Assembly (NCBI GenBank): GCA_018820855.1
Contig: JAHJNL010000007.1
Span: forward strand, 124,001 to 188,000
Length of the DNA: 64,000 nucleotides
Source: Pseudomonadota bacterium
GTDB lineage: Bacteria; Desulfobacterota; Desulfobulbia; Desulfobulbales; Desulfocapsaceae
Direction: 5' to 3'
In this document: positions 54,577 through 62,381 of the stretch, piece after piece
How the letters are laid out: each line of letters opens with the position of its first letter
How positions within the stretch are numbered: position 1 is the stretch's first letter
Position numbers and translations under genes: made by a program
Notes under the pieces: generated by a model
Told to the model about the DNA's origin: nothing
What the model saw: the letters and a program-made list of their open reading frames with translations, nothing else
Database searches by the model: none

Positions 54577-56403
54577 ATGGCATCAACACAACACAATTAC
54601 GATGAAAGCAAGGTAAAGACTCTCAGTTCCCTTGAGCATATAAGAAAACGACCGGGTATGTACATCGGTCGTCTCGGCTCAGGAACACACCCCGATGACG
54701 GAATCTATATTCTTCTCAAGGAAGTTATCGACAATGCCGTAGATGAATTCATCATGGGGGCTGGAAAAAGAGTAAATGTCTCGATTTCCGAGGAGGGGCG
54801 TGTCCGGGTTCGAGATTTTGGACGCGGAATCCCCCTTGGGAAGGTTGTGGAATGTGTCTCCCGGATTAATACAGGCGCAAAATACAGTACTGATGTCTTC
54901 CAGTTTTCCGTTGGCCTCAACGGTGTGGGAACCAAGGCAGTTAATGCCTTGTCCGAATTTTTCAAGGTAACCGCCTACCGTGAAGGCAAGTTCGCCTCTG
55001 CTACCTTTAATAATGGCAATTTAAAGGACCAGGAGCAAGGGGAGAGCAATGAAGCCAATGGCACCCTTGTCGAGTTTCTTCCTTGCGCTGAGCTTTTTCC
55101 TGATTTCACATTTGATCTTGATTATGTGGATAAGCGGCTGTGGCGATATGCCTATCTCAATGCAGGGCTGAAAATATATCTTGATAAGACCTGTTATCAC
55201 TCGACTAACGGTCTTCTGGATCTCCTGGAAAAGGAGCTTGGCGGTCAGAATATCTACGACCCCATCCACTACCAGGATGCCACTCTGGAGTTTGCCTTTT
55301 CCCATACCGAAGGCTACAGTGATACCTATTACAGTTTTGTCAATGGAACCTACACCAGCGAAGGCGGCACCCACCTTTCCGCCTTTCGCGAAGGGCTGCT
55401 CAAGGGGGTTAATGAATATTCCAATAAAAAATTCGCCGCCAATGATGTCCGTGACGGCGTAGTGGCAACACTGGCAGTAAAGATTGTCGAACCGGTTTTC
55501 GAGTCACAGACAAAGAATAAACTTGGAAATACCGATATTCGCTCCTGGATCGTCAACAAAGTTAAAGATGCGGTCTGCAGCAGCCTGTACAAGGACAACG
55601 ATCTGGCCGAACGTGTTATGGAGAAGGTACAGCGCAACCAGAAGGTGCGTAAGGAGTTGCAGAGTGTCCGCAAGGAGGCCAAGGCCAAGGCCAAAAAGGT
55701 AGCACTGAAGATCCCTCAGCTTAAGGACTGCAAGCATCATCCTGCGCGCAACGAGGCCTCGGCCACCGGACAGGAGAATATGGTTTTCATTACCGAAGGC
55801 CAGTCTGCCGCCGGCTCCATTGTGTCATCGCGTGACCCTATGACACAGGCTGTTTTTTCCCTGAAGGGCAAGCCCATGAATGTACTGGGGCAGAAACTTG
55901 CCATGCTCTACAAAAATGAGGAGATGTATTCCCTCATGCGGGCGCTCAATATCGAAGACTCTGTAGCGGATCTGCGCTTTGACAAGGTTATCCTGGCAAC
56001 TGATGCAGATGTGGATGGGCTGCATATCCGTAACCTGCTCTTGACCTTTTTTCTTCACTATTTTGAACCACTGGTGAAACTTGGCCATGTCTACATCCTG
56101 GAAACGCCCATTTTCAGAGTAAGGACAAAGACGGAGACCATCTATTGCTATACTGACAAAGAACGGGAGCAGGCAATCGGTACTTTGCAGGGAAAAGGAA
56201 AAGTCAAAAAAGCTGTGGAAATCACCCGTTTCAAGGGACTGGGTGAAATTTCACCCAAGGAGTTTAAGCAGTTTATCGGCCCGAATATCATCCTCAAGCA
56301 GGTAGACATGGGATCGGTAAGTGAGCTGTCCGAAGTCCTTTCCTTTTATATGGGGAAAAACACCCCTGAACGAAAAGCCTATATCATGGAAAATCTCCTG
56401 TAG
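54577..56403 (+). CDS. parE: DNA topoisomerase IV subunit B (type IIA)
   Basis: This is the ATPase and Toprim subunit that drives decatenation with ParC. The 608-residue protein has the GHKL ATP site (IDNAVDEFIMGAG, RDFGRGIPLGKV, VGLNGVGTKAVNAL) and the Toprim residues in FITEGQSAAGSI and LATDADVDGLHIRNL. It is shorter than GyrB because the GyrB-specific insert is missing. It leads parC by 70 bases. Confidence 0.93.
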   Translation: MASTQHNYDESKVKTLSSLEHIRKRPGMYIGRLGSGTHPDDGIYILLKEVIDNAVDEFIMGAGKRVNVSISEEGRVRVRDFGRGIPLGKVVECVSRINTGAKYSTDVFQFSVGLNGVGTKAVNALSEFFKVTAYREGKFASATFNNGNLKDQEQGESNEANGTLVEFLPCAELFPDFTFDLDYVDKRLWRYAYLNAGLKIYLDKTCYHSTNGLLDLLEKELGGQNIYDPIHYQDATLEFAFSHTEGYSDTYYSFVNGTYTSEGGTHLSAFREGLLKGVNEYSNKKFAANDVRDGVVATLAVKIVEPVFESQTKNKLGNTDIRSWIVNKVKDAVCSSLYKDNDLAERVMEKVQRNQKVRKELQSVRKEAKAKAKKVALKIPQLKDCKHHPARNEASATGQENMVFITEGQSAAGSIVSSRDPMTQAVFSLKGKPMNVLGQKLAMLYKNEEMYSLMRALNIEDSVADLRFDKVILATDADVDGLHIRNLLLTFFLHYFEPLVKLGHVYILETPIFRVRTKTETIYCYTDKEREQAIGTLQGKGKVKKAVEITRFKGLGEISPKEFKQFIGPNIILKQVDMGSVSELSEVLSFYMGKNTPERKAYIMENLL

Positions 56404-56473
56404 CCCTGCCGGCCTCTTGGCCATCGGGCAGACCCCATGATCTCTTTTAAAAACTCTTACAATACAAACACAA

Positions 56474-58525
56474 TTGGACTCACAGCACGGTAAACTTCGC
56501 CAGCTTTTTGACTATAACTTCCTGGAATACACCTCCTACGTTATCAAAGAGCGAGCCATCCCAGATATCAACGACGGCCTCAAACCGGTTCAACGTCGTC
56601 TTCTCCAGACCCTTTTCAATATGGATGACGGTCGTTTTCATAAAGTCGCCAACGTGGTGGGTGCCACCATGAAGCTGCACCCCCATGGTGACCAGTCCAT
56701 CTTCGCGGCCTTGGTGAATCTGGCCAACAAGGGCTATCTTGTTGATCGTCAAGGGAATTATGGCAATATCTTCACAGGTGACCAGGCCTCCGCACCTCGT
56801 TATATAGAATGTCGCCTCTCGCCACTTGCCCGTGAGGTTGTGTTCAACAAGGATCTCACAGAGTTTGTAGATTCCTACGATGGAAGAATGCAGGAACCGG
56901 TCACCCTGCCATGCAAGATTCCCATGCTCCTGTTGCAGGGGGCAGAAGGGATAGCAGTGGGGATGGCAACCAAGGTGATGCCCCACAATTTCTGTGAACT
57001 TCTGGAAGCTCAAAAGCAGATCCTGAAAGGGGAAGAGGTGACTCTCTACCCTGATTTTATTCAGGGAGGTATGCTGGATGTCTCATTATACGATCATGGG
57101 AACGGCAAAATACGTTGTCGGGCAAAGATGGAGGAAGCCAACGAAAAGACAATCATCATTAAAGAGATTCCTTATAGCACCACGACAGAATCTTTGATTG
57201 ATTCTGTGGAAAAGGCGGCCAAGGCTGGGAAAATTAAAATCATTTCCATCAACGATTATACCGCTGAAGAGGTGGAAATTGAAATCAAGCTGGCAAGAGG
57301 CGTTTATGCCAGTGACACCATCAAGGCCCTTTACGCCTTCACCGATTGCGAAGTACCCATCAGTCCCAACCTGACCCTTGTCCAGAATGGAATTCCACGC
57401 ACCTCCACGGTTGAAGAAGTCTTGCACTATAACACCCATAAGCTCCTGGACGATCTGACCAAGGAACTGAAAATCGATCTTGGCCGTTTGGAAGACAGGC
57501 TTCATGCACGACTGCTTGAACAGATATTCATTGAAGAACGTCTCTACAAGACCATAGAGGAGAAAACCAGCTTTAAGGCTGTACTCAAGGGGGTGGATGA
57601 TGCCCTGCTGCCTTTTATCCAGGAACTGAAACGACCGGTTACTACTGAAGATATCGAAAGACTTCTTGAAATCAGGATTAAACGCATATCCCGATATGAC
57701 ATTAATAAGCAGCAAAAAGAAATTCAATCCATTCGTCGTGACATCAAGATAATCAAAAAACATCTCATGGATATGGTGAGGTATACTACTGCCTATATCG
57801 ATTCGTTGTTAAAAAAATATGGAGAGAGTTTCCCTCGTCGCACTGAACTCAAGGCGTTTACGGAGGTCAGCGTTCGCAAGGTGGCATTATCCAATCTCAA
57901 TGTTTGCTATGACAGAGAAAAAGGCTTTTTGGGTCACCAGATCAAGATAAGCGACCCAAAAAAAGATTTTTCCATTGCCTGTTCAGAGTATGACCGCTTG
58001 TTGCTTATCTATGACACCGGCATGTACAAGGTGATCCAGGTGACCGACAAACTCTTTGTCGGTCATGATCTCCTCTGGCTGGGCAAGGTCGAGGGGGGAC
58101 TTATTTTCAATATGGTATACCGTGAAGGCAAGGAAAACTTCTGTTACGTAAAACGTTTTGCCACGCCGAAATTCATCCTCGACAAGGAGTACAGGCTTTT
58201 TGACGAACATAAAAAATCAAAAATCTTGCTCCTCCTCTTGGGTGAAGAAAAAAGTGCCCGGGCAAGTCTCATGCCTTCGCCCAGGGCAAAGTCCAATGTG
58301 GTTGATATCTTTTTTGATCAGTATCTGGTGAAGGGACCTGCTGCCAAAGGAAAGCGGGTATCCTCGCGAATGGTGAGGCGGGTGACTGATTCCACCGGCA
58401 AGAACCCCCCGGAGAGAAAGATGAATCTTCCTCTGCCGGGATTACATGAGCCTGTCGTTGGTGCACGGGAAGGAGAAACAGGGGAGGGGGCAGGGCAGAA
58501 GAAAGAGGACAATGGTGCACAGTAA
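56474..58525 (+). CDS. parC: DNA topoisomerase IV subunit A (type IIA)
   Basis: This is the cleavage-religation subunit. The 683-residue protein has the winged-helix segment (KPVQRRLLQTLFNM), the catalytic tyrosine in QASAPRYIECRLSPLA and VGMATKVMPHNF, a coiled coil (about 330-460) and a reduced C-terminal domain ending in a Lys/Pro-rich, then Gly/Glu-rich low-complexity tail (about 615-683). It begins with TTG at 56474 and has no strong ribosome-binding site, so coupling to parE is possible. Confidence 0.93.
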   Translation: MDSQHGKLRQLFDYNFLEYTSYVIKERAIPDINDGLKPVQRRLLQTLFNMDDGRFHKVANVVGATMKLHPHGDQSIFAALVNLANKGYLVDRQGNYGNIFTGDQASAPRYIECRLSPLAREVVFNKDLTEFVDSYDGRMQEPVTLPCKIPMLLLQGAEGIAVGMATKVMPHNFCELLEAQKQILKGEEVTLYPDFIQGGMLDVSLYDHGNGKIRCRAKMEEANEKTIIIKEIPYSTTTESLIDSVEKAAKAGKIKIISINDYTAEEVEIEIKLARGVYASDTIKALYAFTDCEVPISPNLTLVQNGIPRTSTVEEVLHYNTHKLLDDLTKELKIDLGRLEDRLHARLLEQIFIEERLYKTIEEKTSFKAVLKGVDDALLPFIQELKRPVTTEDIERLLEIRIKRISRYDINKQQKEIQSIRRDIKIIKKHLMDMVRYTTAYIDSLLKKYGESFPRRTELKAFTEVSVRKVALSNLNVCYDREKGFLGHQIKISDPKKDFSIACSEYDRLLLIYDTGMYKVIQVTDKLFVGHDLLWLGKVEGGLIFNMVYREGKENFCYVKRFATPKFILDKEYRLFDEHKKSKILLLLLGEEKSARASLMPSPRAKSNVVDIFFDQYLVKGPAAKGKRVSSRMVRRVTDSTGKNPPERKMNLPLPGLHEPVVGAREGETGEGAGQKKEDNGAQ

Positions 58526-58631: not shown

Positions 58632-59276
58632 TTACAGATTTTTTACAAAGGCCTGCACGTCAGCCCTGATCTTGTCGTATTCCTTGCTTGTCAGGCCTGC
58701 ACCCAATGCAACTTTCCTCGCCATTTCAGCGGTGAGAAAATCCCCAGGGGCGTGCGCATCAGCATTGACCACAAGCTTGGCGCCAACCTTTAAAGCCATA
58801 CGAGCCACATGACCATTGGTCAGTGAGTGGCCCTTGCGACCGGAAATCTCAAGCATTACTCCATTGTCTGCAGCAAGACGGGCCTCCTCCTCACTTATGA
58901 AACCTGGATGAGAAAGTACATCGACACCGGCTTCTATTGCAGCCAGGTTGGTTCCAGGGATCACTGGTTCGACTGGGGTCTCACCGTGAACCACAACCAC
59001 AAGCGCTCCAAGCTCTCGTGCTTGTCTGGTGAGCGAGGCAATGAGGGCAGGGGGGACGTGGGTCAACTCGATTCCAGGGAGAAGGCGTGTGCTGGAATGG
59101 GGATTCAGGTCTTTAGCAGCTCGTACTATACGTGGAATAATAAAATCCAGATTGGAACTGTCTGCATGGTCGGTTATGGCAACAGCCTGGTATCCGAGGA
59201 CTTCGACTCGGCGAAGATGTTCTGCCGGTACCAGGGCACCGTCGCTGAAAAATGTATGAGTGTGCAGGTCTATCAT
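58632..59276 (-). CDS. PHP-domain histidinol-phosphatase-type phosphoesterase
   Basis: About 214 residues from the ATG at 59276, with GCGGAA before it; the TTG at 59288 is less likely. The PHP metal motifs are MIDLHTHTFFSDG, ITDHADSSN, a histidine in VVVHGETPV and LSHPGF, and VNADAHAPGD. This is a polymerase-and-histidinol-phosphatase fold of single-domain type, so it could act as a phosphatase or nuclease; the substrate cannot be read. It follows miaB by 35 bases on the same strand. Confidence 0.85.
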   Translation of the reverse strand: MIDLHTHTFFSDGALVPAEHLRRVEVLGYQAVAITDHADSSNLDFIIPRIVRAAKDLNPHSSTRLLPGIELTHVPPALIASLTRQARELGALVVVVHGETPVEPVIPGTNLAAIEAGVDVLSHPGFISEEEARLAADNGVMLEISGRKGHSLTNGHVARMALKVGAKLVVNADAHAPGDFLTAEMARKVALGAGLTSKEYDKIRADVQAFVKNL

Positions 59277-59311: not shown

Positions 59312-60958
59312 TTAATCCTTCCCAACAAGTTCTCCGCGCAGAGAATGCTGCCCGGCGTGAAGAATGCGGGCCGACACAATTTCCCCGGGCAGGTAACTGC
59401 AAACAGTATCTGCGATATGAACCAGATGGTTAGTCCCCGTCCGGCCAACAATTGAATCCTCGCCAATCTTTTCTATCATCACTGAAAATATCTTTCCGAC
59501 ATAACCCTGATTGTGTTTCAGGCCAATTTCATCCTGCCTGGACTGGAAAATCCGCAATCGTTCCGACTTAACCGTTTCTTCAACTTTATCTTCAAATGTT
59601 GCAGATCGAGTACCGGGACGGTCTGAATATTTGAAAGAAAAAGAACCATGATACTGAACTTCTTCAAGAAGTGACATGGTTTCTTCAAAGTCACGATCAG
59701 TTTCACCTGGAAATCCCACGATCATGTCTGTAGTCAGGGCAATGTCGGGACAGTATGAGCGCAATGCTGCTACCTTCTCAAGATAGAGTTCCCTGGAATA
59801 TTTACGATTCATCAGAGAGAGAATGCGGTTGGAGCCCGATTGAACAGGAAGATGAAACTGTGGGCACAGGATGCCAATATCTGCAAAACAGCGCATCAGG
59901 TCATCGGAAAGGTCTTTTGGATTGGAAGTAGTGAAACGTAAACGCCGAAGACCAGGAATTGTGGAGACTGCGCGGAGAAGGTCTGCAAAGCTGTAATCAA
60001 TGGTTTCTGTACTGACAACATTGGTCCTCCCATAGGAATTCACATTTTGTCCAAGTAGTGTGATTTCCTTGATTCCGGCTTCAACTAAAGAGTAAGCTTC
60101 TTCAAGTATATGGCTAACATTTCGTGATATTTCGTTTCCTCTGGTGAAGGGCACTACGCAATATGAACAGTAGTTGTTGCAGCCCTGCATGATGGTAAGA
60201 AACTTTTTAAAGGGGATGGTCAAAGGAGATTTCTGGTGATTATCCGCCCTTAAGTTAGGGATGAAGGGTGGAATCTGGTAGTCCTTGGAGAGCCTGGTGG
60301 CCACAGGGTGCTCGCCAAAGTCGTCAAGGAGTTCGGTTAACTGGTAAAGACTTTGTGTGCCAATGACCAAGTCGACATGGGGCATACGTTCTATGATCTG
60401 CTGTCCTTCCTGCTGGGCGACACAACCTGCAACGCAGATTTTCAGCTTGGGGTTGTGTTGTTTTTGTTTCCGTAACACACCAAGCATACTCATGACTTTT
60501 TGTTCAGCCTTGGCTCTGATGGAACAGGTATTAAGAATTATGAGGTCGGCCTGATCGGAATCTCCTGTTTCCACATAGCCTTTTTCGCCGAGGAGCTGAG
60601 CCATGATTTCCGAATCACGCTCATTCATCTGACAACCGAAAGTTTTAATGAAAAATGATCTGCTGGGCATTGATAGTTGATTGTTTTTAGTTTTTGAAAA
60701 ATCTATAGAGGGCCGGATGGAGCTGGCGAGATTACCAAGAAGGCTGAAAATTAATTTTGTTCGCTCATGAGGGTAGCGCAGAACAACGCATCCACGCACA
60801 CCAGGTACCGTTGACAACAGACAGAGGCTATCGTACCCCTCGAGAATGAACTTAAGATAGTGATATCTCTGGGGAGCTATGCGGAGGTAAAGTGATTGAA
60901 ATAACAAAATGTTCTTTTTTGAAAACGCTTCACTCTCAAACAGACAAAGAAGAGTCAA
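59312..60958 (-). CDS. miaB: tRNA-2-methylthio-N6-dimethylallyladenosine synthase MiaB, apparently fused to an N-terminal DUF4911-like segment
   Basis: The MiaB part (from Met97, ATG at 60670, 452 residues) adds a methylthio group to A37 of tRNA. It has the first-cluster domain (KTFGCQMNERDSE), the radical SAM cysteines CNNYCSYC and a C-terminal TRAM domain. The same frame stays open upstream for 96 codons to a TTG at 60958, overlapping the purB stop. Residues about 25-85 of this extension (RIAPQRYHYLKFILEGYDSL, then PGVRGCVVLRYPHERTKLI) look like the DUF4911 domain, usually a separate gene. No ribosome-binding site precedes the ATG at 60670, which favours one fused protein over two. A separate translation start for MiaB cannot be ruled out. 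Confidence 0.9.
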   Translation of the reverse strand: MTLLCLFESEAFSKKNILLFQSLYLRIAPQRYHYLKFILEGYDSLCLLSTVPGVRGCVVLRYPHERTKLIFSLLGNLASSIRPSIDFSKTKNNQLSMPSRSFFIKTFGCQMNERDSEIMAQLLGEKGYVETGDSDQADLIILNTCSIRAKAEQKVMSMLGVLRKQKQHNPKLKICVAGCVAQQEGQQIIERMPHVDLVIGTQSLYQLTELLDDFGEHPVATRLSKDYQIPPFIPNLRADNHQKSPLTIPFKKFLTIMQGCNNYCSYCVVPFTRGNEISRNVSHILEEAYSLVEAGIKEITLLGQNVNSYGRTNVVSTETIDYSFADLLRAVSTIPGLRRLRFTTSNPKDLSDDLMRCFADIGILCPQFHLPVQSGSNRILSLMNRKYSRELYLEKVAALRSYCPDIALTTDMIVGFPGETDRDFEETMSLLEEVQYHGSFSFKYSDRPGTRSATFEDKVEETVKSERLRIFQSRQDEIGLKHNQGYVGKIFSVMIEKIGEDSIVGRTGTNHLVHIADTVCSYLPGEIVSARILHAGQHSLRGELVGKD

Positions 60959-62381
60959 CCTCTCCCATCTGATCTTCTCGGGCTGCGAGCAGGGGAACGA
61001 TCACTTCACGGATATACTCATCGGTTTGGGCTGAAGCCCTGCCCGTGAACTGACTGTAATCACCGACAAGTTCCATGATCTCCTCAAAGGAGAAGGGGAT
61101 ACGGTCATCTTGAGCCAGTCGTTCCAACAAATCGTTATCAAGACCTTGCTCTTTGACGATTTTGCCGGCGGCCAGTGAATGTTCTTTAACGACTTCATGC
61201 ATCTCTTGCCTGCTTTCTCCTTTTTCGACGGCCTCCATGAGTATTTTTTCAGTGGACATGAAAGGGAGTTCCATGCGAAGGTGCCTTTCTATTTGCCGTG
61301 GAAATACGACCATTTGACTTGTAATGTTAATGTATAACTTGAGAATAGCGTCGGTCAGCAAAAAGGCCTGTGGAATATCCATACGACGTATGGCTGAATC
61401 ATCAAGTGTCCTCTCAAACCACTGGTTTGAATAGGTCGATGCGAAGTTAGCAGGAAGCCCCATCAGTTTGCGCGAAAGACCTGTCATACGTTCAGAACGC
61501 ATTGGGTTTCGTTTGTAGGCCATGGCTGAAGAACCTGTTTGCTGTTTAGCGAAAGGCTCTTCCTGAACTTTAAGATTTGACAGCAAGCGCAGATCCACTG
61601 CAAATTTATGAGCGGAAGATCCGATACCGGCGAGGGTTTCGGCAAGTTTCATATCAAGTTTGCGAGGATAGGTCTGTCCGGTAACAGAAAAGACCTTATC
61701 AAATCCAAGCTTTTCTGAGACAAGGATATCCAGTTGTCGTACCTTTTCGTTATCTCCGTGGAAGAGTTCCAGGAATGTAGCCTGGGTACCGACAGTACCC
61801 TTTGCTCCACGGGCCTTAACCTGCACAAGGAAGTTATCTATGTACTCCAGATCCATTACAAGGTCCTGAATATATAATGTATTTCTTTTTCCGACTGTGG
61901 TGGGCTGTGCAGGTTGGTAATGGGTAAAACCCAGTGTGGGTAAGTTCTTGTGTTCAAGAGCAAATTTGGCAAGATTGGAGATGACCTTCAGCAGCGCCTT
62001 GCGAACAAGAACGAGTCCCTTTTTCTGAACAATAAGATCAGTGTTACAGACAACAAATTGAGAGGTGGCACCAAGATGAATAATCCCTTCAGCCTTGGGG
62101 CATTTGGTCCCAAATTCAAAGACATGGGCCATTACGTCATGACGTATCTCTTTTTCCTTAGCGGCTGCCAAGTCGTAATCAATATTTTCAAGATTGGCCC
62201 GCATCTCGTCGAGCATCTCTTTTTTTACAATATGAGTAAGCCCAAGTTCATACTGGGCCTCAGCAAGGGCCAGCCAACATCTTCGCCAGGTGGTAAATTT
62301 GGTCTTTTCAGAGAAAAGTTCCTGCATTTCTCGACTGGTATAACGACTGACAAGGGGTTCCTGGTAGATGTCTCTATTCAT
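60936..62381 (-). CDS. purB: Adenylosuccinate lyase
   Basis: PurB acts twice in purine synthesis, releasing fumarate from SAICAR and adenylosuccinate. The 481-residue protein has the fumarase-superfamily signature GSSAMAYKRNPMRSE (about 285-299) and HDVMAHVFEF and GATSQFVVCNTD earlier. The longer C-terminus places it in the larger PurB subgroup. Its last 23 bases overlap the upstream end of the MiaB frame, so the two may be coupled. Confidence 0.95.
   Translation of the reverse strand: MNRDIYQEPLVSRYTSREMQELFSEKTKFTTWRRCWLALAEAQYELGLTHIVKKEMLDEMRANLENIDYDLAAAKEKEIRHDVMAHVFEFGTKCPKAEGIIHLGATSQFVVCNTDLIVQKKGLVLVRKALLKVISNLAKFALEHKNLPTLGFTHYQPAQPTTVGKRNTLYIQDLVMDLEYIDNFLVQVKARGAKGTVGTQATFLELFHGDNEKVRQLDILVSEKLGFDKVFSVTGQTYPRKLDMKLAETLAGIGSSAHKFAVDLRLLSNLKVQEEPFAKQQTGSSAMAYKRNPMRSERMTGLSRKLMGLPANFASTYSNQWFERTLDDSAIRRMDIPQAFLLTDAILKLYINITSQMVVFPRQIERHLRMELPFMSTEKILMEAVEKGESRQEMHEVVKEHSLAAGKIVKEQGLDNDLLERLAQDDRIPFSFEEIMELVGDYSQFTGRASAQTDEYIREVIVPLLAAREDQMGEVDSSLSV

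Follow-up and report, generated by a model that had tools for sequence, protein, structure and literature searches.

An in-frame, probably read-through fusion of DUF4911 to the methylthiotransferase MiaB, alternating with separate genes among close relatives

MiaB-type methylthiotransferases, in the account of PMC10702137, are defined by three domains (MTTase, radical SAM and TRAM), and all three contribute to tRNA binding (PMC10702137). The gene described here, from a stretch of 64,000 nucleotides that we call the window, matches known MiaB (TIGR01574; crystal structures 7mjv-7mjz) in these three domains and in the cysteines expected for its clusters, and differs in that its frame carries an N-terminal DUF4911 domain. 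Stand-alone DUF4911 genes (PF16256) encode the same domain and, in the window's family, occupy the same interval between purB and miaB; the window copy differs from them in having no stop of its own and being read into MiaB. The word DUF4911 had no match in the literature searched, where, at the level of titles, we also found nothing relevant on MiaB fusions or internal initiation. The methylthiotransferase MtaB has been modelled with another protein, YvfG, which we take to be small. By analogy this entry (PDB 9a6d) would be an earlier example of such an enzyme having a protein partner; it concerns MtaB, not MiaB, and a separate partner, and the likeness is drawn from its title, not from homology between YvfG and DUF4911.

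The locus lies on the minus strand of the window and consists of the following features.

60936..62381, minus strand: purB (adenylosuccinate lyase), the upstream gene; Pfam Lyase_1 and ADSL_C
60956..60958, minus strand: TTG first chosen as the start, inside purB (which ends at 60936), probably not used; stops follow in both nearest relatives
59312..60907, minus strand: probable full extent of the fused gene DUF4911-MiaB (TTG 60907 to stop codon 59312-59314, 531 residues); start aligned with L009 and L006, no stop in frame
60716..60886, minus strand: DUF4911 domain, residues 25-81 of the 548-residue frame; Pfam PF16256
60671..60715, minus strand: linker of 15 codons from DUF4911 to the MiaB ATG, in frame and stop-free
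60668..60670, minus strand: MiaB-type ATG, from which a 452-residue MiaB may be started internally; conserved in position in 17/17 genus junctions
59312..60670, minus strand: MiaB; domains UPF0004, radical SAM and TRAM, plus six expected cluster cysteines; profile matches, with MiaB crystal structures as best matches
58632..59276, minus strand: histidinol phosphate phosphatase domain protein (PHP type), the downstream gene; NF004981, 309 bits against a cut-off of 117

Read as an ORF, the frame at 59312-60958 is open for 548 codons from TTG 60958 and remains open upstream as far as a TGA at 61001-61003. Counted from that TTG, 96 open codons precede ATG 60670, as the original prediction had it. 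The DUF4911-like segment that it placed there is confirmed by a match to the entire PF16256 model, all 57 positions of it, at 48.8 bits (gathering cut-off 29.3) and E 7.4e-13, and a profile search found this one DUF4911 in the source genome. Residues 102-545 are MiaB: TIGR01574 (NCBIfam) scores 485 bits against a cut-off of 355, while the models for MtaB (324) and RimO (270) fall short of their cut-off of 357 on the same part. The UPF0004 (MTTase), radical SAM and TRAM domains all exceed their Pfam cut-offs. The radical SAM motif CxxxCxxC is present as C164, C168 and C171 (MiaB numbering), and three further cysteines, C13, C49 and C83, are presumably those of the auxiliary cluster. Sequence and fold searches both place the MiaB structures 7mjv-7mjz first, and the genome yields three methylthiotransferases, one MiaB, one RimO and one MtaB. 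On these profile and structure matches, the MiaB part is intact and predicted to be a normal MiaB methylthiotransferase, which would make ms2i6A37 in tRNA.

We favor, with a probability of roughly 0.6, a labile read-through fusion in which DUF4911-MiaB is made, probably together with MiaB alone, and in which DUF4911 would most likely be an accessory domain of MiaB. Translation from TTG 60907 would give a 531-residue protein with DUF4911 tethered to a normal MiaB through a flexible linker of about 20 residues; in the structure model of the fusion (mean pLDDT 82, built from 39 sequences), residues 69-92 of 531 fall under a pLDDT of 50 in the linker region. A second start, ATG 60670, which lacks a Shine-Dalgarno site, would give a 452-residue MiaB, so that one gene would supply both forms. 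The role of DUF4911 would be to act on MiaB or alongside it, most likely helping with substrate binding or with assembly of the methylthiotransferase. Such help from an added domain is plausible given that all MiaB domains are described as binding tRNA (PMC10702137). The fused protein originally predicted is thus retained, supported by the missing stop, the single copies of both parts, purifying selection, and joins both in nine further genus genomes and, as independent events, in the distant family f63; what falls away is its start, its size and the argument from ribosome-binding sites.

That start was TTG 60958, chosen for the GGGAG close before it. We reject this candidate on two grounds. 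GGGAG is purB coding sequence and forms part of the codons for M-G-E, the first residues of the terminal stretch MGEVDSSLSV, which most relatives also have, with different nucleotides where these are shown (e.g. GGGCGAAG in L010 and GGGTGAAG in L011). In addition, the DUF4911 frame of both nearest relatives, L006 and L009, is closed by stops between the place of TTG 60958 and the domain. The first start codons after those stops, GTG in L006 and ATG in L009, both align with TTG 60907 of the window. Because of this alignment, TTG 60907 is most likely the start and 531 residues the length of the fusion; the 548 residues given before are probably wrong. An ATG or GTG stands a short way ahead of DUF4911 in all 17 genus members except the window and G019.

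The absence of a ribosome-binding site ahead of ATG 60670 is real, as first observed. As an argument for fusion it is uninformative and we reject it, because in genus members whose genes are separate miaB likewise starts without a Shine-Dalgarno site (judged by eye) and because use of such sites is weak in the window. Of its 39 long frames, 34 have an ATG within the first 60 codons, and a 4-base Shine-Dalgarno piece accompanies 13 of these first ATGs, compared with 56 of 345 internal ATGs; the purB and PHP genes have no such site. Its absence at 60670 cannot decide between fusion and restart.

DUF4911 is present in 17 of 20 genomes of the genus; G007, G011 and G014, which are 81-88% complete, have no DUF4911 match and stand outside the junction count. 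The final count used a wider motif, one row per locus and junctions under 130 bases, with G013 represented by L039 here and by L017 in the tree, and gave two groups.

Joined in frame without a stop, 10/17: G000, G002, G003, G004, G005, G009, G012, G015, G017, G019
Separate, 7/17: G001, G006, G008, G010, G013, G016, G018

The same in-frame, stop-free join therefore occurs in nine genus genomes besides the source genome, and is not peculiar to one assembly, and stop-separated genes occur in seven. In G010, one of the separate cases, the two parts are in the same frame with one TAA interrupting. The nearest relatives of the window, G006 and G018, have separate genes and MiaB proteins 84 and 83% identical to its own. 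The joined state is not conserved among relatives: it is found in 10 of 17 within the genus and is polyphyletic. At least five changes between joined and separate states are needed on the miaB tree (G019, with miaB split over contigs, is outside it), and placing the joined genes in a single clade is rejected with a p-AU of 5e-48. Outside the genus we find no join in 20 junctions, of which other genera of the family supply 13 and named records of related sulfate reducers 7, nor in eight further ones. The distant family f63 has 5 joins among the 18 junctions with a MiaB motif in reach, and at least four state changes on a quick, weakly supported tree. From this distribution, the join is a recurrent and probably reversible variant of a gene pair conserved in the family.

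One of the five f63 joins, in G315, is counted as joined at the junction only. In this locus (L190, G315:C1 around 3895400) copies of the beginning of the MiaB core are spaced ~82 bases apart, suggesting a tandem duplication where the two parts meet, and the joined frame stops after 148 residues, within the repeated stretch.

The MiaB ATG is kept at the same place in 10/10 joined and 7/7 separate genus genes, and in the joined genes it sits inside an otherwise poorly conserved linker, whose length and letters vary among relatives. Because the codon is invariant despite its variable surroundings, a working internal start is favored, and its retention suggests that translation also begins at 60670. 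Restart at this codon was originally offered as the alternative to a fusion. The kept ATG speaks for it as an additional start, with the fusion product still well supported by sequence. In f63 the nearest ATG, GTG or TTG lies 20 codons before the MiaB core in G123 and 22 in G236. With no start codon near the core, these two must, by their codons, produce either the full join or, at the minimum, an N-terminally extended MiaB. We reject the broader notion that all joined f63 loci lack a restart codon: G320 has a GTG 8 codons before the core, and G308 a TTG 4 codons before it, at about the usual start place. Of the four joined f63 loci whose codons were compared (all but G315), only G123 and G236 are shown to lack a near start.

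The fusion might instead be a functionless by-product. The stop of DUF4911 would drift in and out while MiaB is always made from ATG 60670, and the working products would be MiaB alone and DUF4911 with a MiaB tail. We find this doubtful. It fits the ATG being invariant in all 17 junctions within a variable linker, the mixing of joined and separate forms on the tree, and the lack of a Shine-Dalgarno site at miaB in both genus forms (by eye) as at purB and PHP of the window. It fits less well with the number of joins. With frame and stops at random, 1.3 of 17 genus junctions would be joined, against 10 observed; in the same stretches, frames other than that of DUF4911 are open in 8 of 34 cases. 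Because relatedness weakens so plain a count, we simulated unconstrained linkers on the miaB tree (16 tips, 1500 runs per setting). Starting from a random ancestor, at least 9 of 16 tips came out joined in 0 to 3.6% of runs at 1-3 times the miaB rate and, at half that rate, in 11% when indels were few and 0.7% when there were more. The matching figures for a joined ancestor are 0 to 15%, 48% and 6%. The excess of joined genes is thus not clear in every neutral setting. We hold the low-indel settings to be less likely, since distances between fixed points of 27 to 48 bases in joined genes mean that indels are common. Moreover, in the clade of G002, G003, G004, G015 and G017 all five genes are joined despite differing linker lengths. 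These simulations and this clade, where the signal is clearest, lead us to propose with moderate confidence that selection has kept the join open.

Constraint on DUF4911 bears on the same question. Its pairwise dN/dS is 0.10 between the window and L006 and 0.096 between the window and L009, compared with 0.087 and 0.069 for MiaB; these are pairwise averages with dS above 1 that span both lineages and the time before the join, and the pair with L015 is saturated and gives no value. By these ratios both MiaB and DUF4911 are under purifying selection, and DUF4911 is presumably translated. For the by-product explanation to hold, a 452-residue tail on a constrained domain would need to be harmless. 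As there is no stop between the two parts, ribosomes that translate DUF4911 should continue into MiaB, from which we tightly infer that the fusion is made in the cell.

DUF4911 could also be a mere operon neighbor with an unrelated task, its join a consequence of short spacing and a shared transcript. In favor of this, 94 of 247 sampled genomes of the phylum have no DUF4911 match (153 have one), many genomes with miaB among them, and the domain does not lie near miaB in most of the sample: among the matches listed (149 genomes with DUF4911, 150 with MiaB, 99 in both), 21 of 99 genomes place it upstream of miaB, in the same orientation and at most 2 kb away, and 78 do not. The separate DUF4911 gene beside miaB, originally taken as the norm, accordingly describes the window's family and these 21 of the 99 phylum genomes with both among the matches listed, and does not hold in general. 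We nevertheless consider an unrelated task unlikely, as adjacency recurs in distant families and extends to rimO. At the 30 best-scoring DUF4911 loci, 12 of 79 neighbor proteins carry UPF0004. Three loci of one genus (f31, g51; L058, L065 and L068) have a rimO-type neighbor; the f31 neighbor fragment fits RimO best, at a score below the whole-protein cut-off and with the fragment cut by the locus edge. In L058 and L065, DUF4911 also lies 402 and 289 bases upstream of miaB. Among ten long frames around DUF4911, Pfam found another known domain only in the two with MiaB. The other eight, from other families and 209-749 residues long, gave no other Pfam domain at E 0.01 (for L084, 749 residues of an 887-residue frame were covered), and we take them as chance open frames. 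Genome context thus points to methylthiotransferases as the partners of DUF4911, and repeated adjacency together with repeated joining supports the tie to tRNA methylthiolation that had been proposed.

The fold of DUF4911 offers few hints of its role. It is predicted as beta-alpha-beta-beta-alpha (mean pLDDT 81, 86 sequences), and structural searches gave no significant match, with KH, PII-like and aspartate-kinase regulatory folds appearing in the match lists. The best Foldseek match is a KH domain at a non-significant E of 0.088, and the best Z, 7.2 (rmsd 3.4 over 72 residues), belongs to a type II secretion protein with many unrelated folds near it. A sequence profile compared with solved structures likewise returned nothing significant (best E 0.11). 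We treat the KH resemblance of the predicted fold as a lead only. Binding of a cluster or of sulfur by DUF4911 is unlikely, because in the family alignment the nearly invariant positions of the 79-residue piece are limited to E23 and Y25, with no cysteine among them. Thermotoga maritima has a DUF4911 match above the cut-off, so the family extends beyond the phylum.

It is very improbable that a one-base sequencing or assembly error created the join in the source genome: the distance between fixed points, 45 bases in the window against 44 and 41 in its nearest relatives, would allow it, since a one-base change breaks the frame, but nine other genus genomes are joined and the joined frame of the window linker is stop-free over 15 codons.

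Returning to a DUF4911-MiaB fusion made alongside MiaB, tethering would be an option and not a necessity, because DUF4911 is a separate protein in relatives. A more specific version is possible, in which DUF4911 is dedicated to MiaB, and perhaps to RimO, and the gene of this genus yields both DUF4911-MiaB and MiaB through read-through and an internal start without a Shine-Dalgarno site, repeatedly swapped with a two-gene operon. Repeated joining in two distant families, together with adjacency, would give DUF4911 a concrete place in tRNA methylthiolation and, where rimO adjoins it, possibly in methylthiolation of ribosomal protein S12. The genus also provides a natural set of joined and separate pairs for comparing the effect of tethering.

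Further along the window, two plus-strand genes at 54577-58525, which we take to resemble DNA topoisomerase IV subunits, converge on the purB-DUF4911-miaB-PHP group.
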